Below, in pieces: positions 1,345-50,868 of a stretch of 62,831 nt of DNA. Below the pieces are notes generated by a model. The model ran no database searches. It was not told the origin of the DNA and saw only the letters and a list, made by a program, of their open reading frames with translations. Numbering within the stretch: the stretch's first letter is position 1; every line of letters starts with the position of its first letter. Source of the stretch: Bacteroidota bacterium (GTDB taxonomy: Bacteria; Bacteroidota; Bacteroidia; Bacteroidales; VadinHA17); assembly GCA_022561875.1 (NCBI GenBank), contig JADFQJ010000014.1, positions 1 through 62,831 of the forward strand. Direction: 5' to 3'. Position numbers and translations under genes: made by a program.

Positions 1345-1383
1345 TTTTATTACTTAATTAAGTCATCATAACTGTTCAGTGCC

Positions 1384-2682
1384 TTAAGTTTGGAATCTCC
1401 TGTTTAGTATTTTATTGGTAAACCATTGTTCCATACGGATTTTTTCTTCCGCATCAGCCTGTGCTTTTGCTTTCAGAAAAGTTTCAGCTTCAGCCGGGGT
1501 TTTTATCCCTACAGCTCTTCTGATTGCATGTTTCCCGAACCTGTTGCGCAATTTGTCCATAGTCAGGTACAGGCTCACCATTTCGGGCGTATCTTCGAAC
1601 ATATTAAGTTGCTGAGCTCCGTTCACCAGGTGGCTGAAACGCACACCGATAAGGCGTATCAACATTCTGCGATGGTACAACCTCCTGAACAGTTCCCTGG
1701 CAGTTTCTATCAATACATGATCGAATGAGGTGTACGGTATCCATTTCTGAAGGGTGTGCGTATCGAAGTTGGAGTACCTGATCTTCACTGTTACGCATGA
1801 TGTGAGTTTTTGTTTTTTCCTCAGTTCATACCCAATTTTTTCTACCATAGTCACCAATGTCTGATTCAATTTGACAATATCTGTGCTGTCTTTTTCAAAA
1901 GTACGTTCTGTGCTTATAGCTTTTCGCTCGGAGTAACGGATTACCGGAGTTGTGTCAACCCCATTGGCCTTTTTCCAGATGGTGATCCCATTTTTCCCAA
2001 GCAGACGTTCCATCATATCTAAGGGTATTCTGCTCAGTATTTCTATGGTAGATACTCCCATGGAACGCAACATGTGAAACGTTTTATTTCCTATCATGGG
2101 TATCTTCCTGATGGACAATGGGAAAAGAAATGGTTTCACCCTTTCGCCGGGTATTTCAAGTTCTCCGTTGGGTTTGGCTTCGCCGGCAGCGATCTTCGAA
2201 ACTGTCTTGTTTATTGATAATCCGAATGAAACAGGAAGCCCGGTATTCCTGATAATATCATTACGCAATTCTTTTGTCCATGTCAGACATCCAAAAAAGC
2301 GATCCATCCCCGTAATATCAATATAATGCTCATCAATTGAAGCTTTTTCGTACACCGGCGCTTTCTCTGCAATAATGTCTGTAACCATATGTGAATACCG
2401 GCTGTATAGTTCCATATCGCCACGAATTACCAGTGCATCAGGGCACAGATTTCGGACCATTTTCATGGGCATAGCCGAATGTATACCGAATTCCCTTGCT
2501 TCATAGCTGCAACCGGATACTACACCACGATCGGAAGCGCCTCCGATAACCACAGGCTTTCCTTTCAGTTTGCTGTTCTTCAGCCTCTCGACTGATACAA
2601 AAAAGGTATCCAGGTCAAAATGCACAATATTCCTGCTTCCTGTTTCCATTAAAAAAACATTCTCAAAAATTTGTATTTTCAA
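1384..2682 (-). CDS. dinB: Y-family DNA polymerase IV (DinB)
   Basis: A translesion polymerase of 432 residues. It has the palm motif HFDLDTFFVSVE (first catalytic Asp) and SIDEHYIDITG (catalytic Asp-Glu), followed by thumb and little-finger regions. QLNMF near residue 357 resembles a beta-clamp-binding motif. An internal Met (METGSRNIVHFDLD, codon at 2649) is the better start, because family members begin only a few residues before the HFDLD motif. The gene leads a probable dinB-dnaE operon and is preceded by two tandem palindromes (2701-2738) that look like damage-regulated operators. Nothing in it is broken. Confidence 0.93.
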   Translation of the reverse strand: MKIQIFENVFLMETGSRNIVHFDLDTFFVSVERLKNSKLKGKPVVIGGASDRGVVSGCSYEAREFGIHSAMPMKMVRNLCPDALVIRGDMELYSRYSHMVTDIIAEKAPVYEKASIDEHYIDITGMDRFFGCLTWTKELRNDIIRNTGLPVSFGLSINKTVSKIAAGEAKPNGELEIPGERVKPFLFPLSIRKIPMIGNKTFHMLRSMGVSTIEILSRIPLDMMERLLGKNGITIWKKANGVDTTPVIRYSERKAISTERTFEKDSTDIVKLNQTLVTMVEKIGYELRKKQKLTSCVTVKIRYSNFDTHTLQKWIPYTSFDHVLIETARELFRRLYHRRMLIRLIGVRFSHLVNGAQQLNMFEDTPEMVSLYLTMDKLRNRFGKHAIRRAVGIKTPAEAETFLKAKAQADAEEKIRMEQWFTNKILNRRFQT

Positions 2683-2700
2683 GTTCTTTAATATATTTTT

Positions 2701-2715
2701 GATTAGAATATAATC
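2701..2715. promoter_or_regulatory. Operator-like palindrome 1 upstream of dinB
   Basis: GATTAGAATATAATC is an inverted repeat of 7-nt arms around one central base, with one mismatch. It lies 18 bp upstream of the annotated dinB start and is centred 23 bp from a second, perfect copy. Its location between dinB and the divergent XRE-S24 regulator makes it a likely site for that regulator; this is inference. Confidence 0.6.
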
Positions 2716-2723
2716 ATTTTTTT

Positions 2724-2738
2724 GATTATAATATAATC
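2724..2738. promoter_or_regulatory. Operator-like palindrome 2 upstream of dinB
   Basis: GATTATAATATAATC is a perfect palindrome: arms GATTATA and TATAATC around a single A. With the copy at 2701-2715 it forms a tandem pair about two helical turns apart (23 bp), as expected for cooperative binding of dimeric repressors. Confidence 0.65.
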
Positions 2739-2790
2739 ATTTCTCATTATATTGCAAAAAATATGGAAAGAAATGGCGATTAGTAAATAT

Positions 2791-2900
2791 TCCCCCTCTT
2801 AATCTCCCCCCAGGGGGAGACATAGTTGTTCCGTTTTTTGCAGGGAGGCACAGGGAAAAACATTAGTTGTCCCCCTCTTGAGGGGGATTTAGGGGGAGGA
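2791..2900. repeat. C/G-tract inverted repeat in the dinB-regulator spacer
   Basis: Two C-rich arms (2791-2811 and 2871-2886) each face G-rich partners. The second is a perfect hairpin, CCCCCTC-TT-GAGGGGG (2871-2886), followed by ATTTAGGGGGAGG. It stands out in an AT-rich spacer and could be a REP-like element or a bidirectional transcription barrier. I see no coding potential. Confidence 0.55.
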
Positions 2901-2943
2901 AAAAAGTTAGTAAATTATTAATAACAAACAAAAAACAATTATC

Positions 2944-3747
2944 ATGCATTTCAGTAATAATATTAAATTCTTAAGGAAACGGCGTGGCCGCACTCAGGAT
3001 GACGTTGCACATACTCTTACTATAAAGCGTTCAACCCTCAGCGGTTATGAGAATGGAGTTGCATACCCGAACATTGCTACCCTGCTGGTTTTTTCCAAAT
3101 ATTTCAATATCTCAATCGATACACTTATCAGGGTGGATATTGGTAACCTTTCGGAAAGTCAGCTAAGGCAGCTTGAAGGAGGATATGATGTTTATATTAA
3201 AGGAAGTAAATTGCGGGTATTGGCTACAACTGTTGACCCTGAAAACAATGAAAATATTGAACTTGTACCCGAAAAAGCCAAGGCAGGATACCGGACAGGA
3301 TATGCGGATCCTGAATTTATCTCAGAGCTGCCTACATTCAAACTACCATTTCTATCAAAGGAACGTAAGTACAGAACATTTCATCTGAAAGGTGATTCTA
3401 TGCTGCCTATACCTGACGGTTCCTGGGTTACAGGAGAGTATATACAGGACTGGAGAGATATTGTTAGCGGACATGCATACATTGTTTTTACTATTGATGA
3501 TGGAATTGTATTTAAAATCATCGAGGATTTGGTAAAAGAAAAACAAGTCCTGAGATTATATTCACTGAACCCTATTTACGAGCCATATGATGTTCATATT
3601 AACGAGGTGAAAGAAATATGGAAATTTGTGAATTATATCAGTAACGAAGTTCCTGATCCTATGATTCCGGAAAGCCATCTGATTTCAACTGTTGCAGGAT
3701 TAAAGCAAGACATGGAAAGGCTTAAATCCCGTTTAAAAGAGGACTGA
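2944..3747 (+). CDS. XRE-family HTH / S24 LexA-like self-cleaving repressor
   Basis: A regulator of 267 residues. An N-terminal HTH (about 6-60, with a TLSGYENGVAYPN recognition region) is joined to a C-terminal S24 peptidase fold. The catalytic Ser is in HLKGDSMLP (Ser152) and the Lys in GIVFKII (Lys191). An Ala-Gly bond at 114-115 (KAKAGY) fits the autocleavage site used by LexA and phage repressors. It is divergent from dinB-dnaE, and the tandem palindromes near dinB are probable targets. I infer an SOS-type switch: RecA-stimulated cleavage would derepress dinB-dnaE. No similar palindrome is visible next to its own start. Confidence 0.88.
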   Translation: MHFSNNIKFLRKRRGRTQDDVAHTLTIKRSTLSGYENGVAYPNIATLLVFSKYFNISIDTLIRVDIGNLSESQLRQLEGGYDVYIKGSKLRVLATTVDPENNENIELVPEKAKAGYRTGYADPEFISELPTFKLPFLSKERKYRTFHLKGDSMLPIPDGSWVTGEYIQDWRDIVSGHAYIVFTIDDGIVFKIIEDLVKEKQVLRLYSLNPIYEPYDVHINEVKEIWKFVNYISNEVPDPMIPESHLISTVAGLKQDMERLKSRLKED

Positions 3748-3868
3748 CAATAGTGAAAAAGTCGAAGAGTCGAAATGTCTAAAGGTCGAAGGGTGGAAGA
3801 AAAAGGATTGAGAAATTGTATTGCAGTTGTCGGTTACTTGGGTGCATTAGAGAGAAGAGGGTGTTCAA

Positions 3869-3925
3869 AACTCACTTAACCACTCAACTTACTCAACTAG
3901 AACAAGCTCCGTGCAAGCCCGGTGA
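3869..3925. repeat. Fragment of mosaic intergenic repeat (CTCAACTTACTCAAC vocabulary)
   Basis: This non-coding spacer contains ACTCACTTAACCACTCAACT and CTCCGTGCAAGC. The same words recur, often in the opposite orientation, near 36.8, 39.1, 49.1, 51.0 and 54.9 kb. Confidence 0.5.
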
Positions 3926-3969
3926 AATTCGCAATTGGAATATTCCTGGTATATATTATCGGTAGAACC

Positions 3970-5088
3970 TTATAATTTCAACAAACCTTTAACGTAGTCA
4001 GCAATGGCAATACATGCAGTAAGTCCCGGCGATTCAATACCCAACAGGTTTACCAGTCCCGGCAGGTTCCTGCTGCTTTCTTCACGAATGAGAAAATCCC
4101 TGACCGGATCACCCGGTTTTTGCAACTTAGTCCTGATCCCTGCCTGATCAGGTGTAAGGTCTTCCGGCTCAAGGAACGGGAGGAATGGTTTTACTGTTTC
4201 AAAGAAGTCTTTGGCATGAGTGGGGTCAACAAGCAAGTCACAGTTGTCATCAGCTAGGTATATTGCATTAGGCCCGAGTTTTAGTCCACCACCCAGATCA
4301 ACTGTAGTATGGATCCCCAAACCAACCGTGTTTTGTTCAGGAACAGGATAGATCAGACCATTTACATATTTATTTTTACCATTTCCTACACCAAAATATT
4401 CACCTTTCCAGTAATATACCCTGTAATCAGGATGATCAATTCCAAAACAGACGGCAATTTTACCGGCTTCAAGTCCGGCTGCGTTTACGATTTTTTTTGT
4501 CGAGAAATCAAATTTTTGTTTGTCAGCATCAATTAGTTCAACCTTGTAACCGTCTTCAATTCTCTTAATACCAACAACTTCAGTCCCGTAGACCATCTGC
4601 GAACCACCAATAACCGCATCTGCTTCAAGCTGTTTCATCAGGCGATGAGAATCAATTATTCCTGATGTTGGAAAGTATAATGCCATGTTTGTATTTACAT
4701 AAGGTTCAAGCTCACTGACTTCATCCTGCTCAATAATCCTTCCATCCATTACACCATTGTCCTGCGACCTCTTCAGAATTTCGAACAGCCGCTGCTCTTC
4801 ACCTAAGTTTGTTGCTACAATAAGTTTTCCACATTTTCGGTAAGGAATATCATGTTTGTTGCAATATGCATATATCTTTTCTTTTCCTTCCAGGCACAGC
4901 GTCCCTTTAAGTGATCCTGGCTGGTAATAAATACCTGAATGTACCACTTCACTGTTCCTGCTGCTGGTTTCCTGTCCGAATGTACTGTTCCGCTCAATAA
5001 CAAACACAGGACCGTTGCAATCACACAGAGCTGCAGATACAGCCAGACCAATTACACCGGCACCAATAATTGTAACTTCTGCATCCAT
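3970..5088 (-). CDS. lhgO: FAD-dependent L-2-hydroxyglutarate oxidase/dehydrogenase (LhgO type)
   Basis: A flavoenzyme of the DAO fold, 372 residues. The N-terminal Rossmann motif is IIGAGVIGLAVSAAL. Next comes the SSRNSEVVHSGIYY stretch characteristic of the L-2-hydroxyglutarate oxidase group, and the C-terminus has a substrate/FAD region with GIRTKLQ and the ESPGLT end. The family oxidises L-2-hydroxyglutarate to 2-oxoglutarate and passes electrons to the quinone pool. It is transcribed alone, downstream of tRNA-Lys and its terminator. Substrate is assigned by motif only; other DAO-family 2-hydroxyacid oxidases are possible. Confidence 0.8.
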   Translation of the reverse strand: MDAEVTIIGAGVIGLAVSAALCDCNGPVFVIERNSTFGQETSSRNSEVVHSGIYYQPGSLKGTLCLEGKEKIYAYCNKHDIPYRKCGKLIVATNLGEEQRLFEILKRSQDNGVMDGRIIEQDEVSELEPYVNTNMALYFPTSGIIDSHRLMKQLEADAVIGGSQMVYGTEVVGIKRIEDGYKVELIDADKQKFDFSTKKIVNAAGLEAGKIAVCFGIDHPDYRVYYWKGEYFGVGNGKNKYVNGLIYPVPEQNTVGLGIHTTVDLGGGLKLGPNAIYLADDNCDLLVDPTHAKDFFETVKPFLPFLEPEDLTPDQAGIRTKLQKPGDPVRDFLIREESSRNLPGLVNLLGIESPGLTACIAIADYVKGLLKL

Positions 5089-5116
5089 TAAATAATTGCT
5101 ATTATTATTGAGAACA

Positions 5117-5142
5117 AAAGCCCCGGTGATTATCAGGGCTTT
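5117..5142 (-). terminator. Rho-independent terminator after tRNA-Lys
   Basis: AAAGCCC (5117-5123) pairs with GGGCTTT (5136-5142). On the minus strand the stem ends in GGGGCTTTTG, directly downstream of tRNA-Lys. Confidence 0.7.
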
Positions 5143-5147
5143 AAGTG

Positions 5148-5220
5148 TGATTCAGCTGGGTCTCGAACCCAGGACCCCATCCTTAAAAGGGATGTGCTCT
5201 ACCAACTGAGCTACTGAATC
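5148..5220 (-). tRNA. tRNA-Lys (anticodon TTT)
   Basis: The complement folds as a complete cloverleaf. The acceptor GATTCAG (5220-5214) pairs with CTGAATC (5155-5149), with A as discriminator. The D-arm reads TAGCTCAGTTGGTAGAGC, the anticodon stem CATCC/GGATG encloses CTTTTAA (anticodon TTT), and the T-arm is CTGGG-TTCGAGA-CCCAG. CCA is not encoded, so it must be added after transcription. Confidence 0.97.
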
Positions 5221-5339
5221 GTTAGATTGTCCGCAAAAGTAATACCATTATTTTTATATGCAAAAGGTTTATATGGTTTTTTTCTAACATGTTTTTCCTG
5301 AATATTTTTAGCTTTGTATTGTCAGTTAATATCCAGACA

Positions 5340-6158
5340 ATGAAGTATCTTTTTAAGAATAAAGTTGCTATCGTAACAGGATCTTCTTCGGGAATAGGAC
5401 TCGCTACCGCACGCCTCCTGGCTGAGAAAGGTGCAAAGGTTGTGCTGGCTGCAAGAAATAAAGAGAAACTGGACGAGATTGTAAAAGAACTCAAAGAAAA
5501 TGGGACAAATGTTTTTGCTGTTAAAACTGATGTAAGTTCAGAGCAAGACTGTAAAAATCTGATCGAAGAAACCGTTAACCATTACAAAGCTATTGATATT
5601 CTCATCAATAACGCGGGAATTTCTATGAGGGCATTGTTCAAGGATGTTGACCTGGGAGTGATCCGTACATTAATGGAAGTAAATTTTTTCGGCACTGTAT
5701 ATTGTACCAAATACGCTCTCCCTTACCTGATGGAGGCAAAAGGATCTGTCATAGGAGTGTCGTCAGTTGCAGGGTTTCATGGTATGCCGGGACGAATAGG
5801 TTACTCAGCATCAAAACATGCAATGCATGGATTCATGAATTCCCTTCGAATTGAAAATCTAAAAACCGGCCTTCATGTTATGTTGGTAATCCCGGGGTTC
5901 ACAGCATCAAATGTTAGAAAGTCTGCTCTGGTTGCCGACGGATCAGTTCAGTGTGAGTCTCCCCGGAAGGAAGGTAAAATGATGATGCCTGAGGAAGTTG
6001 CAAAAGCTATTTTAAAAGGGATACGAAGAAAGAAAAAAAAGGTACTTCTTACTTTTTTAGGAAAGGGTTCTGCAATTATGCAAAAATGGTATCCCTCATA
6101 CCTTGACTGGCTTTTTTATTATCACCTGGCAAAAGAACCCGATTCCCCCTTTGAATAG
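5340..6158 (+). CDS. Short-chain dehydrogenase/reductase (SDR family)
   Basis: I chose the ATG at 5340 (MKYLFKNKVAIVTG, 272 aa). The reading frame extends upstream, but SDRs begin just before the first beta strand. TGSSSGIG (about 14-21) binds the cofactor, NNAG is present, and the catalytic Ser (IGVSSVAG) and YSASK motif supply the Ser-Tyr-Lys set. The C-terminus is basic (RRKKKKV) and ends in an aromatic patch, which may associate with membrane. Classical SDRs reduce carbonyls or oxidise alcohols with NAD(P)H; the substrate cannot be told. Confidence 0.85.
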   Translation: MKYLFKNKVAIVTGSSSGIGLATARLLAEKGAKVVLAARNKEKLDEIVKELKENGTNVFAVKTDVSSEQDCKNLIEETVNHYKAIDILINNAGISMRALFKDVDLGVIRTLMEVNFFGTVYCTKYALPYLMEAKGSVIGVSSVAGFHGMPGRIGYSASKHAMHGFMNSLRIENLKTGLHVMLVIPGFTASNVRKSALVADGSVQCESPRKEGKMMMPEEVAKAILKGIRRKKKKVLLTFLGKGSAIMQKWYPSYLDWLFYYHLAKEPDSPFE

Positions 6159-9814: not shown

Positions 9815-9965
9815 AAATTTACTTAGTTTTGTTTAGTTAATAAAAACTGTTTTACGGGTCGCAAAAATAATAAATTTTATTTGAAAGAAAAATAAATACA
9901 CGGTTTAAATATTTGAATTAGTGACAATATTCATCACCAATTTTAAAAAAATGATAAATTCATCA

Positions 9966-9993
9966 TTGGTTTATTTAAACTCTCTTATCTTTG
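9966..9993 (+). promoter_or_regulatory. Bacteroidota-type promoter upstream of dnaX
   Basis: TTGG (9966-9969) and TATCTTTG (9986-9993) match the -33 / -7 consensus (TTTG, TAnnTTTG) with 16 nt between. Transcription would start near 10000, about 64 nt before the dnaX ATG. Confidence 0.6.
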
Positions 9994-10063
9994 TATTTGC
10001 TTGGGTACAGTTCGTAGAATCTGACCCAGGCAGCTAATTGTCAGTTTATTAGATTGTTTTTGT

Positions 10064-11791
10064 ATGGATAATTTTATTGTTTCAGCCCGGAAATACAGAC
10101 CAGTAAATTTTGATTCAGTTGTAGGGCAGGCTTCAACTACGAATACATTAAAAAATGCAATAAGAAGCAAACAAATTGCACACGCATACTTATTCTGCGG
10201 ACCAAGGGGGATTGGGAAAACAACCTGTGCCAGGATATTCGCAAAAACCATCAATTGTCAAAATCCCGTTGACAAAACAAAAGCATGTAACGAGTGTGAG
10301 TCATGTAAATCTTTCAATGAATCCCGTTCTTATAATATTCATGAACTGGATGCCGCTTCAAACAACTCGGTAGATGATATACGTAGTTTGATAGAACAGG
10401 TGAGGATCCCTCCGCAGGTAGGAAAGTATTCCACCTATATTATTGATGAAGTTCATATGTTATCTGCATCAGCATTTAATGCTTTTCTAAAAACCCTTGA
10501 AGAACCTCCTGCACATGCCATTTTTATTTTGGCAACTACTGAAAAACATAAAATCCTTCCCACGATTCTTTCACGATGCCAGATATTTGACTTCAACAGG
10601 ATAAAAACCGAAGATATAGTTAAACATTTATCATACGTTGCAAAAGAAGAAAAAGTAAATATCAAGCCTGAATCACTAAATATCATAGCCAGAAAAGCTG
10701 ATGGCGCAATGCGTGATGCCTTATCAATTTTTGACCAGATGGTTAGTTTTTCAGGTAAAGACATTGAGCATAAAACAGTACTTGAAAACCTCAATGTCCT
10801 TGACTATGACTACTATTTTAAGCTAACACAGACTTTTATCCAGCATAACATTCCCTCAAGCCTGATGATTTTTAATGAAATATTGAACAAAGGATTTGAC
10901 GGACATAATTTTATTAATGGATTAAGCAATCATTTCAGGGATCTCCTGGTTTGTAAAGATGAAGTAACCCTGCCTTTGTTTGATATGGGCGCTTCAGTGA
11001 GGGATCAATATCTTGAACAGACCAGGAATTGTCCTGTTGAATTTTTGTATAATGCCCTGGATATTTGTAGTTCGGCAGATATAAATTATAAAAGCAGTAA
11101 AAACCAGCGACTGCATGTGGAACTTACGCTTATAAAGCTTTGTATGCTGACGATGCCTGATAATGAAACTTCTGAAAAAAAAAATCCTGAAAAAGAAGAA
11201 TTAAAAAAGGAAAGTACGATTCAACATAAAGAGAGAACAGAACAGGAAAAAACAGAATTACAATCTCCATCACAAGAGGTTGTCAGGAACGGTAAACCAA
11301 AATACAAGTCATCCACACCATCCATTGGCGGATTAATTAACGGTAAAGTATCTTCTACGGCCAAACAAAAAGAGGCAGAACAAAATCAGGGTTCTGTTGA
11401 CAGTGAGAAACGGGAAAATCAAAATGAAGACTTCTCCATGAAAGAATTAATGGAGAAATGGATTCAATTCGCAGAAAAAATACGTAAAGATAAACCCCGT
11501 ATGGCCATAACATTAAAAGCCAGGGAGCCGGTACTTAAAGAAGATTTTGTGATCGACGTTGAAATGAGTAACTCAGCCCAGCATGACGATTTCAAACTTA
11601 TGATCAAAGCTGATCTCGCTAACCACCTTAAGAAAGAACTAAAAAATGACAATATAAAAATTGTTACTTTTGTTTCGGAAACAAAGCAGGAGAAAGCACT
11701 TTATACAGACGAAGATAAATACAAATACCTTTCTGAAAAAAATCCTAATATCAACAAGTTAAAACAAAAATTCAACCTGGATTTCACTTAA
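10064..11791 (+). CDS. dnaX: DNA polymerase III subunit gamma/tau (clamp loader)
   Basis: A AAA+ clamp-loader ATPase of 575 residues. Walker A is GPRGIGKTT (46-54), four zinc-binding Cys are at 65, 75, 78 and 81, and the Walker B/DExx region is IIDEVHMLS. The SRC arginine-finger motif lies in TILSRCQIFDF. Domain III follows, then a Lys/Glu-rich linker (about 365-460) and a C-terminal domain expected to bind the polymerase, i.e. a tau form. It loads the beta clamp during replication. No slippery A-run followed by a clear early stop is evident. Confidence 0.95.
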   Translation: MDNFIVSARKYRPVNFDSVVGQASTTNTLKNAIRSKQIAHAYLFCGPRGIGKTTCARIFAKTINCQNPVDKTKACNECESCKSFNESRSYNIHELDAASNNSVDDIRSLIEQVRIPPQVGKYSTYIIDEVHMLSASAFNAFLKTLEEPPAHAIFILATTEKHKILPTILSRCQIFDFNRIKTEDIVKHLSYVAKEEKVNIKPESLNIIARKADGAMRDALSIFDQMVSFSGKDIEHKTVLENLNVLDYDYYFKLTQTFIQHNIPSSLMIFNEILNKGFDGHNFINGLSNHFRDLLVCKDEVTLPLFDMGASVRDQYLEQTRNCPVEFLYNALDICSSADINYKSSKNQRLHVELTLIKLCMLTMPDNETSEKKNPEKEELKKESTIQHKERTEQEKTELQSPSQEVVRNGKPKYKSSTPSIGGLINGKVSSTAKQKEAEQNQGSVDSEKRENQNEDFSMKELMEKWIQFAEKIRKDKPRMAITLKAREPVLKEDFVIDVEMSNSAQHDDFKLMIKADLANHLKKELKNDNIKIVTFVSETKQEKALYTDEDKYKYLSEKNPNINKLKQKFNLDFT

Positions 11792-41802: not shown

Positions 41803-42663
41803 ATGCACCTATACAAGAAAATAGATAAACTACTGGAGGATAACCGCTCCGGATCAGCAGCGCTTCTTTCCAAACTGCTGGACCTGCTGGAGGAATATCA
41901 TGATGGTAAGGAGAAATATTCCGTACAGGACATGAAGAATGTTCTGAACCGGCTAACTAACGGCTTCTCAGGTTTTTCAATATATTTTCATTTTTACAGG
42001 GCATTCAATAACAGGTTGAAAGTACTCGAAGGATATCGTTTCCGGAATATGGAGATCAGGAAAGAGATGTTGCGGTTTCTCGTGTCATACCGGGGTAAAT
42101 GGAAAAATGTTAATGACAGAATAGCTGCATCTGTTATTGAAAGTCTCGATCTGAAGAATAAAAAAATTCTCCTGCATAGTAACAGTTCAACAATCAAATC
42201 GGTTTTTAACATATTATACAAACATGATATTCGTCCTGATATCATTCAAACCGTATCATATCCGGTTAAAGAGGGCATAATACAAGCAAAATACCTGGCC
42301 AGGAAGAGCCTGAATGTTACATTAATAACCGATGCATCAATCGGATTGCATATACAGGCAATTGATTACGCTATCCTCGGTGCAGATACAATATTTGAAA
42401 AAAGCTTTATTAATAAAACAGGTAGTTTGCCCATTGCACTGGCATGCAAGTATTTCAAAAAAAATCTTTTCGTTTTTGCAGATTCAAGAAAAAAAACAGA
42501 CCAGGAGCTTACATCACGGACAGTACTGAGTGGATTACGAAATGAGAAAGAAAAACCACCGGATGAAATCCTGTCAAATTCTCCTGAAAATATTCATCCC
42601 TCAAACCGCTATTTTGAAGAGATACCCATTTCACTTGTTTCAAGATTTTTTTATGAAGAGTAA
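41803..42663 (+). CDS. IF-2B family protein (eIF2B-alpha/ribose-1,5-bisphosphate isomerase-like)
   Basis: A 286-residue protein. After a helical N-terminus it carries the isomerase core: ILLHSNSSTIKSV, LITDASIGLHIQAIDYAILGADTIF and INKTGSLPIALACKYF, corresponding to the conserved DxA, GAD and NKxGT elements of methylthioribose-1-phosphate isomerase, R15P isomerase and eIF2B-alpha. The family rearranges aldose phosphates to ketose phosphates or senses them. The substrate is unknown and no methionine-salvage gene is adjacent. Confidence 0.78.
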   Translation: MHLYKKIDKLLEDNRSGSAALLSKLLDLLEEYHDGKEKYSVQDMKNVLNRLTNGFSGFSIYFHFYRAFNNRLKVLEGYRFRNMEIRKEMLRFLVSYRGKWKNVNDRIAASVIESLDLKNKKILLHSNSSTIKSVFNILYKHDIRPDIIQTVSYPVKEGIIQAKYLARKSLNVTLITDASIGLHIQAIDYAILGADTIFEKSFINKTGSLPIALACKYFKKNLFVFADSRKKTDQELTSRTVLSGLRNEKEKPPDEILSNSPENIHPSNRYFEEIPISLVSRFFYEE

Positions 42664-43363: not shown

Positions 43364-43465
43364 AAAAAAACCAAAGTTAACAATTACATCAGAAAATGGG
43401 ATGATTGCAAGCTTTTTTTAAACCAATAAATGTTTTATATTTATTCAGCAATAATACTGATCAAC

Positions 43466-44290
43466 ATGAACTCAAAATCTTTAACCGGGTTACTCCCTTA
43501 TGAATGTTCAGGATGGAAAGCAGGGAGCATGGACAAGTTCTATGACAATGAAACGCTTTACAATTATATAGACGGGGGTGCAGAGCTCTACATATCGTAT
43601 GGCTTCAGTGAAGTGATCAGTCGCAAATACATAAAAGCCGGACAACCGGAAATTCGCGTGGATATTTTTGATATGATCAAATCCAGGAATGCTTATGGTG
43701 TATATACACATTCGCGTGAGAGAATTGAGCATAACTACGGACAAGGGTCCCAAACACTGATAGAGGCAGTATTGTTCTGGAAAGACCGGTATTACATATC
43801 CATTTTATGCCAAACCGGGACTACGGACTGTGATGAAGCTATTCACTGCCTGGCAAAAGCTATTGACGCTGCTATTCCGAATGAAGGAAGGATCCCCGGT
43901 GTGGTAAAATTGCTGCCGGAGTTTAAACTTGTTGCTGAAAGTGTAACTTATTTTCATCACCCGGTATGGCTTAACTATTTTGCCTGGCTCTTTGAAGATA
44001 ACTATCTGAATATCACCAAAGAAACAAGTGCGGTTTGGGCAAAATACCAAACTACAAAGAAACGTGCCATGCTTCTTTTAGTGCAATACCCGGATGAGCA
44101 TACAGCTCGTTTGGGTAATGATTCTTTTACGAAATATTTTTTTTCAAATCCTGAGAATGGATTGATTACCAAAGATAAAAGTGGCAGGTGGTTGAGCAGC
44201 CGGCTTGAGGGAAAATTGTTTGCAGCAGTGTTCGATGCACCTGATAAAGACTTCACTAAAACGCTCCTGGATAAAATTCATAATAAATAA
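43466..44290 (+). CDS. DUF6599-like protein adjoining the AmmeMemoRadiSam locus
   Basis: I prefer the ATG at 43466 (MNSKSLTGLLPYECSGWKAG); an in-frame ATG at 43430 would add 12 hydrophobic residues. The body starts with YDNETLYNYIDGGAELYISYGF, typical of the DUF6599 group, and has no catalytic motif I can name. It lies 23 nt before the DUF362 gene on the same strand, so the pair is probably one operon. Function unknown. Confidence 0.65.
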   Translation: MNSKSLTGLLPYECSGWKAGSMDKFYDNETLYNYIDGGAELYISYGFSEVISRKYIKAGQPEIRVDIFDMIKSRNAYGVYTHSRERIEHNYGQGSQTLIEAVLFWKDRYYISILCQTGTTDCDEAIHCLAKAIDAAIPNEGRIPGVVKLLPEFKLVAESVTYFHHPVWLNYFAWLFEDNYLNITKETSAVWAKYQTTKKRAMLLLVQYPDEHTARLGNDSFTKYFFSNPENGLITKDKSGRWLSSRLEGKLFAAVFDAPDKDFTKTLLDKIHNK

Positions 44291-44313
44291 CATTATAATA
44301 AAATCTAATCAAA

Positions 44314-45198
44314 ATGAAATATTCAAGAAGATATTGGTTAAAATCATCACTCGTGGCATCACTGGCAGGTTTTCTGTTCCTTAAGTTTCCTTTAATACTT
44401 TTCGGCAAGGGGACAGGTAAGTCGAAGGTAATCCTGATACGTGATACAGCAGCGCTGGACCAGAATGGCAAACCGGTCAGGAAAACAATTTCTGATATGA
44501 TGGATAAGGCAATAACTGCATTAACCGGAATTGATAATCCCCGGGATGCATGGAAAAGTATTATCAAACCGGATGATATTGTCGGGATAAAAAGTAATGA
44601 GTGGAGTCATCTTCCTACCCCTGAAGCTCTGGAAGATATCCTTAAAGAACGGGTTTTAGATGCTGGTGTCCGGGAGCAAAACATCAGTGTAAGAGACCGT
44701 GGAATACGCAAAGATCCTGTTTTTCAAAAGAGCACCGCACTGATAAATGTACGTCCGTTGCGTACGCACAATTGGTCAGGTGCAGGAACTCTGATAAAGA
44801 ATTACATAATGTTTACCAGGAGACCCTGGACCTACCATCACGATACATGTGCCGATCTTGGCAAACTATGGAAATTACCGGAAGTTGAAGCCAAAACACG
44901 ACTTAACATACTTGTAATGTTAACGCCTCTTTTTCATGGCACCGGACCACATCACTTCAACAAAGAATATATATGGAACTATTATGGTCTGCTCGTCGGA
45001 TTCGATCCGGTTGCCATTGATTCGGTTGGTGTAAGGATACTCGAAAATAAAAGAGAGGAGTATTTTGGAGAAAAGCGGCCACTGAATCCGCCGGCTAAAC
45101 ATATTTTACTTGCGGATACACGCTATAATCTTGGAAATGCTGATCCTGAAAAGATTGATCTGGTTAAGATAGGATGGAAGGAGGAAATACTACTTTAA
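44314..45198 (+). CDS. DUF362 domain protein with Tat-type signal
   Basis: A 294-residue protein that opens with a twin-arginine motif, SRRYWLK (4-10), and a hydrophobic stretch, pointing to Tat export of a folded, possibly cofactor-bearing protein. DUF362 features include GIKSNEW and VRPLRTHNWSGAGTLIKNYIM (a Lys-Asn patch), plus GFDPVAIDSVG near the C-terminus. No ferredoxin-type Cys cluster is seen. It converges on the radical SAM gene amrS. Confidence 0.78.
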   Translation: MKYSRRYWLKSSLVASLAGFLFLKFPLILFGKGTGKSKVILIRDTAALDQNGKPVRKTISDMMDKAITALTGIDNPRDAWKSIIKPDDIVGIKSNEWSHLPTPEALEDILKERVLDAGVREQNISVRDRGIRKDPVFQKSTALINVRPLRTHNWSGAGTLIKNYIMFTRRPWTYHHDTCADLGKLWKLPEVEAKTRLNILVMLTPLFHGTGPHHFNKEYIWNYYGLLVGFDPVAIDSVGVRILENKREEYFGEKRPLNPPAKHILLADTRYNLGNADPEKIDLVKIGWKEEILL

Positions 45199-45209
45199 AC
45201 AGGTATTTT

Positions 45210-46370
45210 TTATTTCCATACTCCGGCAATGTGCTCACCACAATTCGAACACTTTCCACTTTTCAGATGATTCGAAACGATCCTGTACCCACGCCTTTCA
45301 ACAACAGTTCTTTTGCATGAAGGGCAGATGGTATTGTCAGCTTCTGTTCCGGGAACGTTTCCTATGTAAACAAACTTAAGTCCTGCATTCATCGCAATAT
45401 CCCTGGCTTTTACAAGAGTTGAGAGCGGAGTAGGAGGTAGCTGGGTGAGTTTATACAGTGGATGAAAACGACTGAAATGCAGCGGATTATCAGCAAATCC
45501 ATTTTCAAACATCCAGTCACACATTTCCCTGATCATATCAAAATCATCAGTCCAGCCCGGAACAATAAGATTGGTGATTTCCAGCCACACACCTTCCTCG
45601 TTCAAAATCTTCAGGGTACGCAGCACCGTTTCAAGTTTTCCTCCATTTAATTTCAGGTATATACTGTTTTTGAACGACTTAAGGTCGATATTGGCAGCAT
45701 CAATTACCGAAGCAAGTTTTCTCAGTGGTTCTTCATTTATATACCCGGCAGAAACCAATACATTTTTAATTCCGGCATTACGGGCCAATATTGCAGTATC
45801 GTAAGTGTATTCAAAAAATGTAATAGGTTCGGAATATGTATATGCTATTGATTCACAATTACTTTCAATAGCCGCTTCAATAACTTTATCCGGCATCAGG
45901 TCGAAATTCCGGGTTTCACGCGGACTTTTCTGTGAGATAGACCAGTTCTGGCAGTTGAGGCATACAAGGTTACAGCCTGCAGTTGCAATTGAGAAAGCTT
46001 TGCTTTCAGGAAGAAAATGGAGCAGTGGCTTCTTTTCTATCGGGTCGATATGCACGGCACAGGGATTTCCGTACGCTATGGTGTATAATTTACCATTCTT
46101 ATTGAGATGGTTGTGGCAATCGCCCAGCTCACCCTCCTTGATCGTACACTCATTTGGACAACGTAAACATTTCAATCCCCTTGGGGTAGTTGTATAAAAC
46201 ATCGCCTCACGGCTCCATTTCCAGAGTTTTTCAGGGGGAGCAGTTATTGGTAAAGCCGTATTCTTCCCAAACAAACTGGTCATTGGAGCACAGGCAATAC
46301 CACCTATACCTGCCAGTGTATATTTAACAAACTGTCTTTTACTGATCTTCTTTTTTGACTCTTTCATCAC
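45210..46370 (-). CDS. amrS: AmmeMemoRadiSam system radical SAM enzyme (AmrS) with Tat-like signal
   Basis: A 386-residue radical SAM protein. The 4Fe-4S site is ATAGCNLVCLNCQNW (Cys133, 137, 140), preceded by a Cys set at 68, 71, 75 and 85 and followed by a C-terminal four-Cys zinc-ribbon-like region (CPSCK, CSNCG). The layout matches AmrS (PflA-like) enzymes. Residues 9-30 read ISKRQFVKYTLAGIGGIACA, a Tat-like KR motif plus hydrophobic region, unusual for a radical SAM enzyme. Partner proteins A and B are encoded as a fusion at 49315-50868. The substrate is not established. Confidence 0.9.
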   Translation of the reverse strand: MMKESKKKISKRQFVKYTLAGIGGIACAPMTSLFGKNTALPITAPPEKLWKWSREAMFYTTTPRGLKCLRCPNECTIKEGELGDCHNHLNKNGKLYTIAYGNPCAVHIDPIEKKPLLHFLPESKAFSIATAGCNLVCLNCQNWSISQKSPRETRNFDLMPDKVIEAAIESNCESIAYTYSEPITFFEYTYDTAILARNAGIKNVLVSAGYINEEPLRKLASVIDAANIDLKSFKNSIYLKLNGGKLETVLRTLKILNEEGVWLEITNLIVPGWTDDFDMIREMCDWMFENGFADNPLHFSRFHPLYKLTQLPPTPLSTLVKARDIAMNAGLKFVYIGNVPGTEADNTICPSCKRTVVERRGYRIVSNHLKSGKCSNCGEHIAGVWK

Positions 46371-46566
46371 TAATTTCTGCTATCTTTCAGATTTTTCGGT
46401 ATGTCTATGCCTGAATAGTATTGACTCACCGAAAGTACTCATATTTTTCTTTACATCATCCATTCTAAAAAGTTATAAGTTATAAACTGTCTCCTTCAGC
46501 CTCCAAAGTTCTTCGTGCTTTGCTTTATATCCCATGCCCAAAGCACCCAGCACCCAGCACCCAGCA

Positions 46567-49074
46567 TCACAACCTCTTCCTGTTCACCCATGTAATACCT
46601 GCAAATAAGATATTAAACAATCCTACCACAATTGAAACCTTAGCCAGTCCGATAAGAGGTATAAGAAATGCCGAAACAATCAAAGCTCCGAATGCTGAAC
46701 CTGCCAGATCGGCGCTATAGATGCCGGCAGTAACTGCAGATACGTGTCCTTTTTGTATACGGCTGGCCATCGAAAACAACGATCCGACCAGGAAGGAGAT
46801 CACTAATGTAAGAATAAAAAAGAGTGAATGCACAATGTATTGGTGATCGGTAATGGGTTTTGCAATATTAATGAGCAGGGGTAATAATAGTGCAAATAAT
46901 CCAATTGCCAATTGATTGCCGCTGAAGCTGAACGGTCCGGGAGTTTTTATTATCTTCCTGCCGATCACTGCCCCTAAAGTCATGCCACCCATAAAAACAG
47001 CGATAATTATGCCGGTCATCAGATACACATATCCGTAAATTATCTGGAAAGCAATAATCAGGATCACTTCCGATGATGAAGCAGCAAAACCTCCGGCAAA
47101 AATACCAACCTGTACGGTATTTAAGCGGATCATTAATATTATCATCACCAGGAATACTACTCCGCCGAATACCCACATATTAAGCTGATAATAACTGAGC
47201 CAGGAGGATATCTGGTGAAAATATGCAGATGGTTCAAAGTCCCTGTTGATCCCGGCATTCTTGTCTAATTGAGCCATAAAAAAGTTACTACGGTTACGGA
47301 TCAGGGTATCATCAAGATAATACTTGTTAACATACTGGTTTTCAATGTTCTTTTCTTCAATTCTGCCGGTAATATCAAATCCAACAGTATTATTTGATGC
47401 CAGGTAGAAGTTCTTCTCTCCCGGAATCATTATCACATTTGCAAAAACCTTTTTTAGCGTGTTGAATATCAACGAATTGACAATATTTGCTTCTTCGCCG
47501 GCATAATTGCCTGTGGAGGGGAGATCCATTGACACAACACCATCGGGTGACATACAGGATTCCAGTTGATGGAAAAACTCTATTGTGTAGTACCTGTTCA
47601 GGTTAGTAGTAGACGGGGCAGGCAGGTTAACCAGGACAATATCGTAAGGACCGTGATTATCCTTAAGAAACAGTCTGGCATCTTTATTATATATTTGTAT
47701 TCGGCTATCTTCCAGTTTTTCATAAAATTTTTCACCGATTTTTACCAGCCATGGGTTAATTTCGAGGTAGTCAACTTTCCTGACCGGGTATTTCATAATC
47801 TCGTGTATTATCCCTGATACTCCTCCGGATATCACCAGTATGTTTTGCGGGTTTCGATGCTGCACCATTGCATAATGAACAGCTTCCTCATTTGCTATAA
47901 AATTCAAGGTATTAAACAATAGAACCTGATTTTCATAGAAATTATACTGTTCACCGATTTTAGTAACAGCAAGATTCCCGTATGGTGTCTCTTTCAGGTA
48001 CACAATCTCCTGGTTTGGATACATAAAACCCTTTACAAACCGGTCGAAACGACTAAAAAATGTAAGTCCGGAAACCAGAACCACGATAACAGAAAAAGCT
48101 ATAATCACCATGACCTTTTGGTACCTCAAATTAACCCACACAGCCACAAAAAGATTTAATACCAGCAGAATAGTAAGTATCTGGAACGGTGTCATTAAAA
48201 ACACAAGGATAAAGCTGAACAATATTCCCCCGATAAGGCTTCCGAAAGACTCCAGAGCATAGGCTATGTCAATGCGTTTACTTTTGTGAACAAAAGAAAG
48301 TTCCGCAGCAAGGAAAGTAAACAAAAACCCTGAAAGAAGGCAAAAAGGAAGCAACAAGATAAATGATCCGGAAAATATTTCCAAAACCCCGACAAGGCTG
48401 CCGGGAAGAAAAACAATGTTTTTTAAATAGTTAAGCAGAAAGACTGTAATAAAAGGGAGAACTCCCATAGCAATTTGAGCAATAAAGGATATCCGGACAG
48501 GTTCTTTAATACGATTTGAATATTTTCCTAAATAAGATCCAATTCCGGTAATAAACATCCAGTTTGCCAGGATAATTCCTATAACCAGCTCGTTACCCTG
48601 AAAAACTGACAGAAACTCTCTTATAATAATTATCTGGGTTACGAGCGAGGTAATCCCCAAAACGGTTAACGATATGGAGAGACCCCTGGTTCCTGCCACA
48701 GCAAACCCGGAGTTATCGCGATATTCCAGACCATCCTGTTCTTCCGCCTTATATTTTTTCCCTCTGAAAATGTCCGCATAGTATTTAATATGCCATGAGA
48801 AGTGAAACATTGCTATCATCACCATGCTGATACCAAAATCAACATGAAGAATGGTTATTTGATCAACCCACGGAATATCCAGTTTGTAGTTTATCCGGAT
48901 AGCCATTATAATGCCGAGCAAAGCTGTACCAAAAAACGTCAAACCCAGCAGGACATTCCATATCTTCCTGTGTGTAACAGTTCTTATCAAACCTATCCTT
49001 GATATAGTAAAACTTAACAAGTATAGTATCAGGGCGATAATTCCAATTGATATAAAAGAGTAGGGGGTGGACAT
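46567..49074 (-). CDS. Multi-spanning membrane protein with spermidine-synthase-like domain
   Basis: An 835-residue protein. About 15 or more hydrophobic segments flank a soluble aminopropyltransferase-like domain near residues 355-560: LVISGGVSGIIHEIMK (SAM-type site), DYLEINPWLVKIGEKFY and an acidic DARLFL. The loop that normally holds the catalytic Asp (DxxDP) reads NLPAPSTTNLNRYY, so true spermidine synthesis is unlikely. Such fused transporter-like/spermidine-synthase proteins recur with AmmeMemoRadiSam genes. It lies between AmrS and the Memo-AMMECR1 fusion, all on the minus strand, and may handle a lipid-soluble or exported substrate. Confidence 0.8.
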   Translation of the reverse strand: MSTPYSFISIGIIALILYLLSFTISRIGLIRTVTHRKIWNVLLGLTFFGTALLGIIMAIRINYKLDIPWVDQITILHVDFGISMVMIAMFHFSWHIKYYADIFRGKKYKAEEQDGLEYRDNSGFAVAGTRGLSISLTVLGITSLVTQIIIIREFLSVFQGNELVIGIILANWMFITGIGSYLGKYSNRIKEPVRISFIAQIAMGVLPFITVFLLNYLKNIVFLPGSLVGVLEIFSGSFILLLPFCLLSGFLFTFLAAELSFVHKSKRIDIAYALESFGSLIGGILFSFILVFLMTPFQILTILLVLNLFVAVWVNLRYQKVMVIIAFSVIVVLVSGLTFFSRFDRFVKGFMYPNQEIVYLKETPYGNLAVTKIGEQYNFYENQVLLFNTLNFIANEEAVHYAMVQHRNPQNILVISGGVSGIIHEIMKYPVRKVDYLEINPWLVKIGEKFYEKLEDSRIQIYNKDARLFLKDNHGPYDIVLVNLPAPSTTNLNRYYTIEFFHQLESCMSPDGVVSMDLPSTGNYAGEEANIVNSLIFNTLKKVFANVIMIPGEKNFYLASNNTVGFDITGRIEEKNIENQYVNKYYLDDTLIRNRSNFFMAQLDKNAGINRDFEPSAYFHQISSWLSYYQLNMWVFGGVVFLVMIILMIRLNTVQVGIFAGGFAASSSEVILIIAFQIIYGYVYLMTGIIIAVFMGGMTLGAVIGRKIIKTPGPFSFSGNQLAIGLFALLLPLLINIAKPITDHQYIVHSLFFILTLVISFLVGSLFSMASRIQKGHVSAVTAGIYSADLAGSAFGALIVSAFLIPLIGLAKVSIVVGLFNILFAGITWVNRKRL

Positions 49075-49077
49075 TCC

Positions 49078-49216
49078 AATGAGTTACGGGTTACGAGTTA
49101 CGGGTAAAGTTAAGAGTTATAAGTTCAAGTTAAATGTGTACTATGCTTGCACAGAGCTTGTTTTAGTTGAGTAAATTGAGTAAGTTGAGTAAGTTGAGTG
49201 GTTAAGTAAGTTGAGT
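49078..49216. repeat. Mosaic intergenic repeat copy with TTGAGTAAG tandem repeats
   Basis: It begins ATGAGTTACGGGTTACGAGT, passes through AGTTATAAGTT and TACTATGCTTGCACAGAG (49139-49156), then runs into a tandem array of TTGAGTAAG-like units (49166-49216). Confidence 0.6.
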
Positions 49217-49314
49217 TTTTTCTTACGACTACATACTATTTACAACTTACTTATTCTTCCTTCATCTCATCTCTCACTTCTCACCGCTTTCTTCTCCTTC
49301 CGGCTTCCGGCTAA

Positions 49315-50868
49315 TTACTTATCCTCCCATTGCTTCAGGTCATTTTCTGAAAATATAATAGCTTCAAAGATATAAATATCGGCATCTTTCCAGCCCTCCC
49401 AGCCAATCCGTGCCTTATCCCTGGAACACCGACCGAGGAATTCCTCTTTTGTCCAACCAAATTCACCAGCAACTTGTGGAAGGAATGTGCCTGATTTGCC
49501 GTCTTTTACTATATATATCCCATGTTTCCCAAGAGTTATTTCATCAATGGATTGAATCTTTTTCTTTGGAGTGAGAACAGATATCTCCAGTTCAATACCT
49601 TTCAGTTCCTCCGGTGTAACTGGTTTAAACCGGTAATCCCTGGTTGAAGCGGAAATTGTCATTTCACTTATCACTTTATATAACGGATCCTTAGCATCGA
49701 ACTGCCCTATGCATCCCCTTAGCTTACCATCGCTTGAGTGAAGGGAAACAAATGCTCCTGCAGGGGTATGCAGGTGGTTTGAAAATTTTTCATCATCGAT
49801 ACTTATGATTTTTCCGTTATTAACATAAAATTCCATAGTATTGCGTGCAATATGCAGCAAGTCCATTTTGTCATTCTTATCCAGGGAAAAACCGGTTTCT
49901 TTTTTTCCCTTTGTCTTACTGGTAACACTGATAGACCAATATCCAACAACACGGGAGTTATCTCCATATTGTGTGTCTCCCGAGTTCATATATTTTACCT
50001 TATGATAGCTTATATCTTTATCTCCCCTGGTCATATACATTAATGTCAGCACAGATGTCCATCCACACAAAGTTGTAGCCAGGTTTTCAATACCCTCTTT
50101 TTCATGCTTACTAATTGTATTGAGTAACTCCGCCGGCGAATTGGATACTACTGCATCAGCAATGCTATTATCGATTCTTACTGCGTTCTCATGTGACGGA
50201 TAATGAGAAAAATCAGTGCTTATCACGAAAAGATTTTCTGATGTGAAGTATGGTTTCAGCGCCCTTGCTATTTTTTCAATTACCCTGGGGGATTGGGTTC
50301 CTAAAACAACAGGAACTATTGAAAATTCATTTTTAAGCCAATACTGCAAAAATGGTAGTTGCACCTCCAGACTATGCTCACCGAGGTGCGCATTACCATT
50401 GAACGAGAAAATATCGTAACCATTTATCAGATTGGTGGACAATGGAATATCTACTTTTACTTCACCTAATGGTGTAATGTAATTACCAATGTTGTAGATA
50501 GATGCTCCACTGAACATTGTACGGTGGCTAGAGCCTAGTATAAATATGGTTTTATACTTTGAATCCGGATCGAGCTGCTTAAAAGAATTTGCTGCCACTT
50601 CGCCTGAGAACACGTAACCTGCATGAGGGGAGAGGATAGCAATAGTATTCTCTTCACTAATCCCTGATTTAGCTTTACTGAAAAGTTCTTCAAGGGTTTT
50701 TTCCAGATTGTTCTTGTTACCGGGGTAAAACTGTCCGGCAACTGCAGGTTGTCTGTCAATTCTTTTTTGCAGTGACTGATCTTCTTTATTCCTGTTTTGA
50801 GAATTGCAGAAATTTTGAGAAAATATTAAAAACATAATAACAATAAGTATTGAATTAATGATTTTCAT
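49315..50868 (-). CDS. AmmeMemoRadiSam systems B (Memo) and A (AMMECR1) fusion, secreted
   Basis: A 517-residue fusion. A Sec-type signal (MKIINSILIVIMFLIFSQNF) precedes the Memo-like domain (about 40-310: AVAGQFYP, ILSPHAGYVFSG, ILGSSHR, LGEHSLEVQLPFL, STDFSHYP), whose His residues resemble a dioxygenase metal site. A C-terminal AMMECR1 domain (about 330-515: GAFVSLHSSDGKLRGCIGQF, LEISVLTP, GTFLPQV) follows. Memo and AMMECR1 are usually separate. With AmrS this completes the system; the signal peptide places the module outside the cytoplasm. Biochemical function unknown. Confidence 0.88.
   Translation of the reverse strand: MKIINSILIVIMFLIFSQNFCNSQNRNKEDQSLQKRIDRQPAVAGQFYPGNKNNLEKTLEELFSKAKSGISEENTIAILSPHAGYVFSGEVAANSFKQLDPDSKYKTIFILGSSHRTMFSGASIYNIGNYITPLGEVKVDIPLSTNLINGYDIFSFNGNAHLGEHSLEVQLPFLQYWLKNEFSIVPVVLGTQSPRVIEKIARALKPYFTSENLFVISTDFSHYPSHENAVRIDNSIADAVVSNSPAELLNTISKHEKEGIENLATTLCGWTSVLTLMYMTRGDKDISYHKVKYMNSGDTQYGDNSRVVGYWSISVTSKTKGKKETGFSLDKNDKMDLLHIARNTMEFYVNNGKIISIDDEKFSNHLHTPAGAFVSLHSSDGKLRGCIGQFDAKDPLYKVISEMTISASTRDYRFKPVTPEELKGIELEISVLTPKKKIQSIDEITLGKHGIYIVKDGKSGTFLPQVAGEFGWTKEEFLGRCSRDKARIGWEGWKDADIYIFEAIIFSENDLKQWEDK

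Follow-up and report, generated by a model that had tools for sequence, protein, structure and literature searches.

Does the gene cluster at positions 43430-50868 of a stretch of Bacteroidota DNA encode an AmmeMemoRadiSam system that acts outside the cytoplasm? The stretch, referred to below as the window, comprises 62,831 nucleotides (assembly GCA_022561875.1, contig JADFQJ010000014.1, forward strand). AmmeMemoRadiSam systems combine Memo, AMMECR1 and AmrS, a radical S-adenosylmethionine (SAM) enzyme; the three families span bacteria and archaea, with Memo and AMMECR1 reaching humans, and the trio normally comes without export tags. Many uncultured bacteria seem to have a tagged version directed to a site beyond the inner membrane, where activity of a radical-SAM enzyme would not be anticipated. 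In the parts of the open-licence literature that were searched, we found neither an established reaction for the trio nor a description of an exported form. Gene order and linkage, leaders, conservation, folds and topology, all derived from sequence or prediction, suggest that the operon in the window is probably an extracytoplasmic version of the system, and we class it as an exported form of a system already known. An exported form narrows the candidate substrates to the cell envelope or the outside; should the enzyme be active there, radical-SAM chemistry, a supply of SAM and a strong reductant would all be needed across the membrane.

Core genes and their leaders

Curated cut-offs for AmrS, Memo and AMMECR1 are all exceeded in the window, and every gene named in the initial annotation was found in its place. 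The core genes are on the minus strand. The Memo-AMMECR1 fusion (49315-50868; TIGR04336, 253 bits; TIGR04335, 151.1 bits; leader MKIINSILIVIMFLIFSQNFCNSQN) is predicted to be secreted or periplasmic: its N-terminus, MKIINSILIVIMFLIFSQNFCNSQ, is Sec-like, as had been proposed (about residues 1-24; 50797-50868), and is followed by a Memo domain (49930-50757; MEMO1, PDB 7kq8, E = 4.8e-23) and an AMMECR1 domain (49339-49860; PF01871, 164 bits; PDB 1zq7, E = 4.5e-21). AmrS, an enzyme similar to the pyruvate formate-lyase (PFL) activase, is encoded at 45210-46370 and, with 362.6 bits, clears the TIGR04337 cut-off of 220. Its export leader (KKISKRQFVKYTLAGIGG; residues 1-35, 46266-46370) contains SKRQFVK (46323-46343), and its CxxxCxxC cluster motif (45951-45974) comprises C133, C137 and C140, the cysteines originally listed, counting from the GTG start. 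Between the two genes, again as first described, lies a spermidine-synthase-like membrane protein (46567-49074).

A genome scan found 125 AmrS relatives, and 80 loci were kept. Memo, AMMECR1, the membrane protein and AmrS occur all together in 43 of the 59 loci with Bacteroidota titles and in 45 of all 80; when the Bacteroidota-titled loci are limited to those of at least 10 kb, the full four-domain set is present in 37 of 43. The genes usually run Memo-AMMECR1, membrane protein, AmrS. Cultured species that carry the operon are Prolixibacter denitrificans and P. bellariivorans (loci L098 and L099). Complete or partial sets are found further afield, in Omnitrophota, in a genome named Desulfosudis (locus L144), in a deltaproteobacterium (L133, plus L202 elsewhere in the same genome) and in a small candidate phylum, a group of 9 genomes, with a record titled Nitrospirota (L134).

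The window system shares with leaderless AmmeMemoRadiSam (TIGR04335, TIGR04336, TIGR04337) the three families, the cluster cysteines and the Memo metal-ligand residues. It differs in the export leaders, in the Memo-AMMECR1 fusion (which also exists leaderless, in L006 and L007) and in the membrane protein, which combines a major facilitator superfamily (MFS) fold with a spermidine-synthase-like domain and lies at most 4.5 kb from 43 of 51 leader-bearing AmrS but from 0 of 14 leaderless ones.

Leader types, history and pairing

Leader types were assigned by simple hydropathy and motif rules, with two rows (L055 and L152) moved by hand; on this basis, 82 of 208 distinct AmrS have leaders resembling twin-arginine translocation (Tat) signals, 29 have Sec-like leaders, 93 have none and 4 are cut by contig ends. 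In a motif-blind comparison, 99 distinct AmrS were selected solely for having 30 or more extra residues at the N-terminus that include a hydrophobic stretch. The KR/RR-x-[FYCW]-hydrophobic motif was present in 77 of these extensions, compared with 1.44 on average and 6 at most over 500 shuffles, an excess that is not readable as a probability because the AmrS sequences are related. It was found in 77 of the 82 extensions of moderate hydropathy (below 2.2) and in 0 of the 17 above this value; thus, the motif tracks Tat-like, not Sec-like, hydropathy.

These counts bear on the explanation that the leader is an artefact of annotation or start-codon choice and that all parts of the system are cytoplasmic. 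The window AmrS starts with GTG or the next ATG, and its ribosome-binding site looks weak by eye, as this explanation would have it. However, the motif recurs far beyond the shuffle maximum, and neither the Memo leaders nor the membrane protein depend on the AmrS start, so we consider an artefact hardly credible.

The leader of the window AmrS, KKISKRQFVKYTLAGIGGIACAPMTSLFG, carries the S-R/K-R-x-F-L-K context (SKRQFVK) before a moderately hydrophobic region, and its hydropathy over 15 residues is 1.47, compared with 2.27-3.25 in 14 Sec-like leaders. The window genome encodes one TatC (PF00902, 215.2 bits; contig C9). The initial description of this leader as Tat-like holds, with the motif being KR and not twin Arg. 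TtrB is an iron-sulphur (Fe-S) subunit. Its Tat signal is of the KR type, as in AmrS, although the protein families differ; some Tat signals accept Lys in place of the first Arg, with a slower rate in SufI (PMC1182353, available part of the text). A lipoprotein reading of the leader, with Cys27 as the modified residue, was rejected: position −3 is Gly, and no classical lipobox was seen by eye.

Judged by the charge around the hydrophobic stretch, the enzyme is predicted to lie outside in 73 of the 82 Tat-like rows and in 24 of the 29 Sec-like ones. The initial annotation had offered membrane anchoring by uncleaved leaders as an alternative to export; by this charge bias, such anchoring would still leave the enzyme domain outside. 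When the count is restricted to loci that reach 3 kb or further in both directions, 4 of 49 Tat-like AmrS, on three contigs (L134, L135 and L256), have tatC no more than 4.5 kb away; none of 11 Sec-like and none of 14 leaderless AmrS does. The tatC genes of L134 and L135 score 228.1 and 225 bits against Pfam, and that of L256 was recognized by sequence comparison only. The L256 contig, from Omnitrophota, brings together (140-5402) tatC, two AmrS genes with Tat-like leaders, one of them with RK instead of RR, and the spermidine-synthase-like membrane protein.

In a FastTree phylogeny of the 208 AmrS, the presence or absence of a leader accounts for 6 changes and the three leader types for 12. 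A single branch (support 94 to 100) sets apart a portion of the tree that contains every one of the 111 leader-bearing rows; this portion also holds 44 leaderless rows, 38 of which form one clade that includes the second AmrS of the window genome. The Sec-like label changes 7 times, with at least 3 changes forced by starred branches, and a thinned 70-row IQ-TREE phylogeny again gives 7 Sec-like changes, 3 of them forced, and 6 changes between Tat-like and Sec-like, inner branches being often weak in both trees. The two types alternate: the RR leaders of L134 and L135 adjoin the Sec-like L136, L139 and L141, L202 and one L256 AmrS gene are placed among Sec-like rows, and a Sec-type leader replaces the Tat-type in most sampled Omnitrophota AmrS. 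Such exchanges of export signal are expected if selection keeps the outside location rather than the motif. The initial annotation had proposed that leaders be compared across homologues; they recur over phyla, switch between Tat-like and Sec-like, and are mostly paired with a leader-bearing Memo-AMMECR1.

Among 82 judged AmrS-Memo pairs, both proteins carry a leader in 65, neither does in 11 and 6 are discordant; the agreement of 76 out of 82 is descriptive because starred branches give 2 independent pairs. The discordant rows include two with a weak Memo score (L097 and L235) and one that depends on start choice (L045); the other three (L133, L147 and L148) are real.

Leader-bearing and leaderless forms also meet within single genomes. 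The window genome, which is 98% complete, has a second, leaderless AmrS on contig C51 (L033:6191-7198) and no leaderless Memo or AMMECR1, the one copy of each being in the fusion. A leaderless AmrS-Memo pair accompanies a separate leader-bearing AmrS with Memo-AMMECR1 in the Bacteroidota genomes G305, G306, G314, G317, G323, G337 and G344, although a contig end interrupts the leaderless pair's AmrS in G306 and that of G323 is broken or truncated, and some of the exported Memo leaders score weakly. In Omnitrophota, AmrS exceeds the cut-off in 111 of 145 genomes, and 9 out of ten genomes picked for multiple AmrS pair a single leaderless copy with one or more that bear leaders. The coexistence of a leaderless and an exported form in the same cell amounts to a built-in control.

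A membrane protein with a predicted periplasmic domain

The membrane protein has 835 residues and matches the spermidine-synthase-like domain PF01564 with 68.2 bits. Its AlphaFold model (predicted local distance difference test score, pLDDT, 86.0) consists of ten helices, a soluble domain and seven further helices. The best 50 Foldseek matches by E-value are all spermidine synthases (1uir, E = 1.0e-11), and a second aligner, applied to Foldseek's list, places VMAT2 first (8x3k; Z = 29.4, root-mean-square deviation 3.4, 338 aligned, target 373), with the spermidine synthase 3anx at Z = 28.9. Transmembrane helices (TM) 4-9 and 12-17 are homologous (probability 97.8%, E = 8.8e-13, 183 columns), so two MFS halves flank an insertion made up of the soluble domain together with TM10 and TM11, and a 12-helix, 6+6 MFS fold is present in the model. 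Half 1 (TM4-TM9) is encoded at 48133-48693, the spermidine-synthase-like domain (about residues 350-610) at 47245-48027, and TM11 with half 2 (TM12-TM17) at 46585-47181, all on the minus strand.

In all 47 homologues, Lys and Arg are more numerous on the side facing away from the soluble domain (summed loop means 20.9 vs 8.3), with a marginal bias in L151 (14 vs 11). A periplasmic placement of the inserted domain agrees with the usual MFS topology. Charge bias and fold concur, and the spermidine-synthase-like domain is accordingly predicted to be periplasmic. The acidic residue of its GxG(D/E)G motif is lost (V419 in the window, mostly L, I, P or V among the 47 homologues), and N483 and A486 occupy the positions expected for the aminopropyltransferase Asp residues, as located by the catalytic Asp motif of spermidine synthase. 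What is missing are the residues for binding decarboxylated SAM and for catalysis of the aminopropyl transfer.

A three-helix module precedes the MFS fold (residues 1-104; 48763-49074, minus strand). It is present in 41 of 58 homologues, and its His 35, 77, 91 and 95 are kept in 39, 41, 41 and 40 of these 41, respectively. All Pfam matches are below threshold, among them cytochrome b561 (E = 0.061) and DUF4405 (E = 3.6) in L098, and Oxidored_q2 (E = 0.028) in the window. No separate gene for the module was found in the loci at E up to 1, the three matches listed being cut or split copies of the membrane protein, and the structure search of the membrane protein hardly probed this part. From the conserved residues, we suggest that the four-His module is a heme or metal site. 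A short GC-rich tandem repeat (units like tgctggg; 46542-46566) lies in the gap between the membrane-protein and AmrS genes.

The protein scores below both cut-offs for known fused MFS/spermidine synthases (NF037959, 38.8 bits vs 40; PRK03612, 167.9 vs 472) and adds to them the His-bearing three-helix module and the AmmeMemoRadiSam operon. The fungal N-terminal histidine methyltransferase NHMT, a seven-transmembrane protein of the endoplasmic reticulum that acts on secreted proteins (PMC10349129, available part of the text), resembles it by description in combining membrane helices with a spermidine-synthase-like domain that lacks the acidic residue for decarboxylated SAM. In contrast to the window protein, NHMT has only seven N-terminal helices and no MFS fold with an inserted domain (as described in the same part of PMC10349129).

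Conservation of the enzyme domain

The AmrS model (mean pLDDT 91.3) matches the PFL activating enzyme (PDB 3cb8; E = 6.3e-15, TM-score 0.80 of the target). The fold is common to both proteins, and AmrS adds the leader, an N-terminal C-x2-C-x3-C-x9-C and a C-terminal C-x2-C ... C-x2-C. CxxxCxxC and the four N-terminal cysteines are invariant throughout, in all 111 leader-bearing and all 93 leaderless AmrS, and T178, P182 and E187 are equally conserved in the two sets. Position 301 (window AmrS numbering) differs: it is Arg in 111 of 111 leader-bearing AmrS and Ala in 62 of 93 leaderless ones, suggestive of a possible change of substrate or reaction.

This difference is relevant to an alternative in which AmrS does reach the outside, yet neither the cluster nor the SAM chemistry is put to use there, the protein acting instead as a partner to Memo-AMMECR1 in a structural or metal-handling role. 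We know of no source of SAM outside the cytoplasm, which, like R301, would fit such a role. As to metal handling, residues presumed equivalent to H49 and H81 of human MEMO1 (mapped by alignment with a numbering offset) and to C244 (mapped by motif) were counted in 106 open reading frame rows, with repeats kept in, and are His in 105 (1 gap), His in 106 and Cys in 103 (3 gaps). H49, H81 and C244 are the metal ligands of human MEMO1, which binds iron or copper (PMC11081632, available part of the text), again in line with a metal-handling partner. However, the cluster cysteines, the N-terminal cysteines, T178, P182 and E187 are as conserved as in leaderless AmrS, and we regard an idle exported AmrS as distinctly improbable.

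Points against an extracytoplasmic system

Several observations weigh against the extracytoplasmic reading. R301 is among them: leader-bearing and leaderless AmrS may not share one reaction. Others concern the leader. Two consecutive arginines are absent from the window AmrS, and a search of the window genome with TIGR01409 (TAT_signal_seq) returned 19 places, AmrS not being one of them, with RR at 18 of the 19; the RR leader of DUF362, a neighbour described below, is likewise outside these 19 places. Across 155 distinct AmrS, with rows truncated at contig ends left aside and eight rows 'weak-h' (mostly due to wrong start choice), the Tat-like rows have KR in 61 of 70 cases and RR in 9. In a Bacillus subtilis study, only 1 of 69 RR/KR candidates turned out to be Tat-dependent (described in PMC1182353, available part of the text), and no tatC is nearby for 45 of the 49 Tat-like AmrS.

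Further points come from distribution and chemistry. The test of AmrS-Memo co-variation was not significant (independent pairs: 2 when restricted to starred branches, 4 when every branch is used). L133, L147 and L148 have an AmrS with no visible leader and a Memo with a membrane leader; leader-bearing (Tat-like) and leaderless AmrS are adjacent in L058/L192 (G343:C110); and in the Omnitrophota genome G379, all three AmrS copies fetched carry leaders, with no leaderless one among them. On the chemical side, the chief doubt is how SAM, low-potential electrons and cluster assembly could be provided for beyond the cytoplasm, and we found no precedent for a Sec-exported Fe-S enzyme, for SAM outside or for a low-potential donor outside.

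Part of this evidence fits an arrangement in which leaders tether AmrS to the cytoplasmic side of the membrane, within reach of SAM and reductant, with Memo-AMMECR1 outside and contact made via the membrane protein. The KR motif and the missing TIGR01409 match are compatible with it, as are the Sec-type leaders of Omnitrophota, which are ill-suited to folded Fe-S proteins, and the leaderless AmrS of L133, L147 and L148, which stand beside a membrane-leader Memo with a gene for a small membrane protein directly upstream. The charge bias (73 of 82 and 24 of 29) nevertheless predicts an enzyme on the outside, and tatC adjoins Tat-leader AmrS in three contigs; we therefore rate cytoplasmic-face anchoring as unlikely, albeit the strongest of the alternatives.

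In L133 (5613-11132), a gene with FMN_bind and Fer4_5 domains is followed by the small membrane protein, leaderless AmrS, membrane-leader Memo, membrane-leader AMMECR1 and RR-leader DUF362 (9933-11132); this layout is a second arrangement of the system.

A possible mechanism

The initial annotation had envisaged a periplasmic system supplied through the membrane protein. Recurrent leaders, tatC neighbours and the predicted topology support the place, whereas the supply of SAM and electrons, like actual export, the electron path, the substrate and the reaction, is what we infer. Under the extracytoplasmic reading, AmrS would fold in the cytoplasm, probably with its Fe-S cluster, and a Tat-type leader (Sec-type in most sampled Omnitrophota) would move it across the inner membrane or anchor it there, while Sec would carry Memo-AMMECR1 out. 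In the MFS-fold protein, the two extra helices of the central loop would hold the SAM-type domain at the periplasmic face, where AmrS, Memo-AMMECR1 and the membrane protein could act jointly: AmrS would generate a radical from SAM and act on a substrate held on Memo-AMMECR1, and the MFS/spermidine-synthase-like subunit would handle SAM or its products.

Electrons might cross via lineage-specific modules of the His, DsbD-type, NosR-like or ferredoxin kind. DsbD_2-like genes stand beside 13 AmrS, every one of them Sec-like (66-85 bits against Pfam in the six scanned), and in such cases this neighbour might hold the numerous AmrS cysteines in the reduced state outside. The FMN_bind and Fer4_5 protein, NosR-like in architecture, is encoded upstream of AmrS in L133 and L147, with a partial relative in L148; in L134, a polyferredoxin is positioned between tatC and AmrS. 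The complete scheme, comprising a folded periplasmic AmrS, SAM via the MFS subunit, electrons via redox modules, a substrate held by Memo-AMMECR1 and sometimes a parallel leaderless twin, is put forward tentatively, as conceivable rather than probable.

Neighbouring genes

The initial annotation had described DUF362 with the system, and its span also takes in DUF6599. The conserved operon contains neither; both were rejected as core genes, relatives of these two window proteins accompanying the set only in genus- or family-level relatives. DUF6599 (43430-44290, plus strand) is a neighbour outside the core set. DUF362 (44314-45198, plus strand; PF04015, 24.9 bits, cut-off 24) does carry the twin-Arg leader previously attributed to it (MKYSRRYWLKSS), is convergent with AmrS and is probably also outside the core. 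A looser link to DUF362 remains because a Tat-leader DUF362 comes after AMMECR1 in L133. Relatives of the VTT protein of the window likewise accompany the set only in genus- or family-level relatives. An IF-2B-family protein (41803-42663; PF01008, 83.9 bits) is also encoded in the window, and it is found near the cluster in close relatives too.

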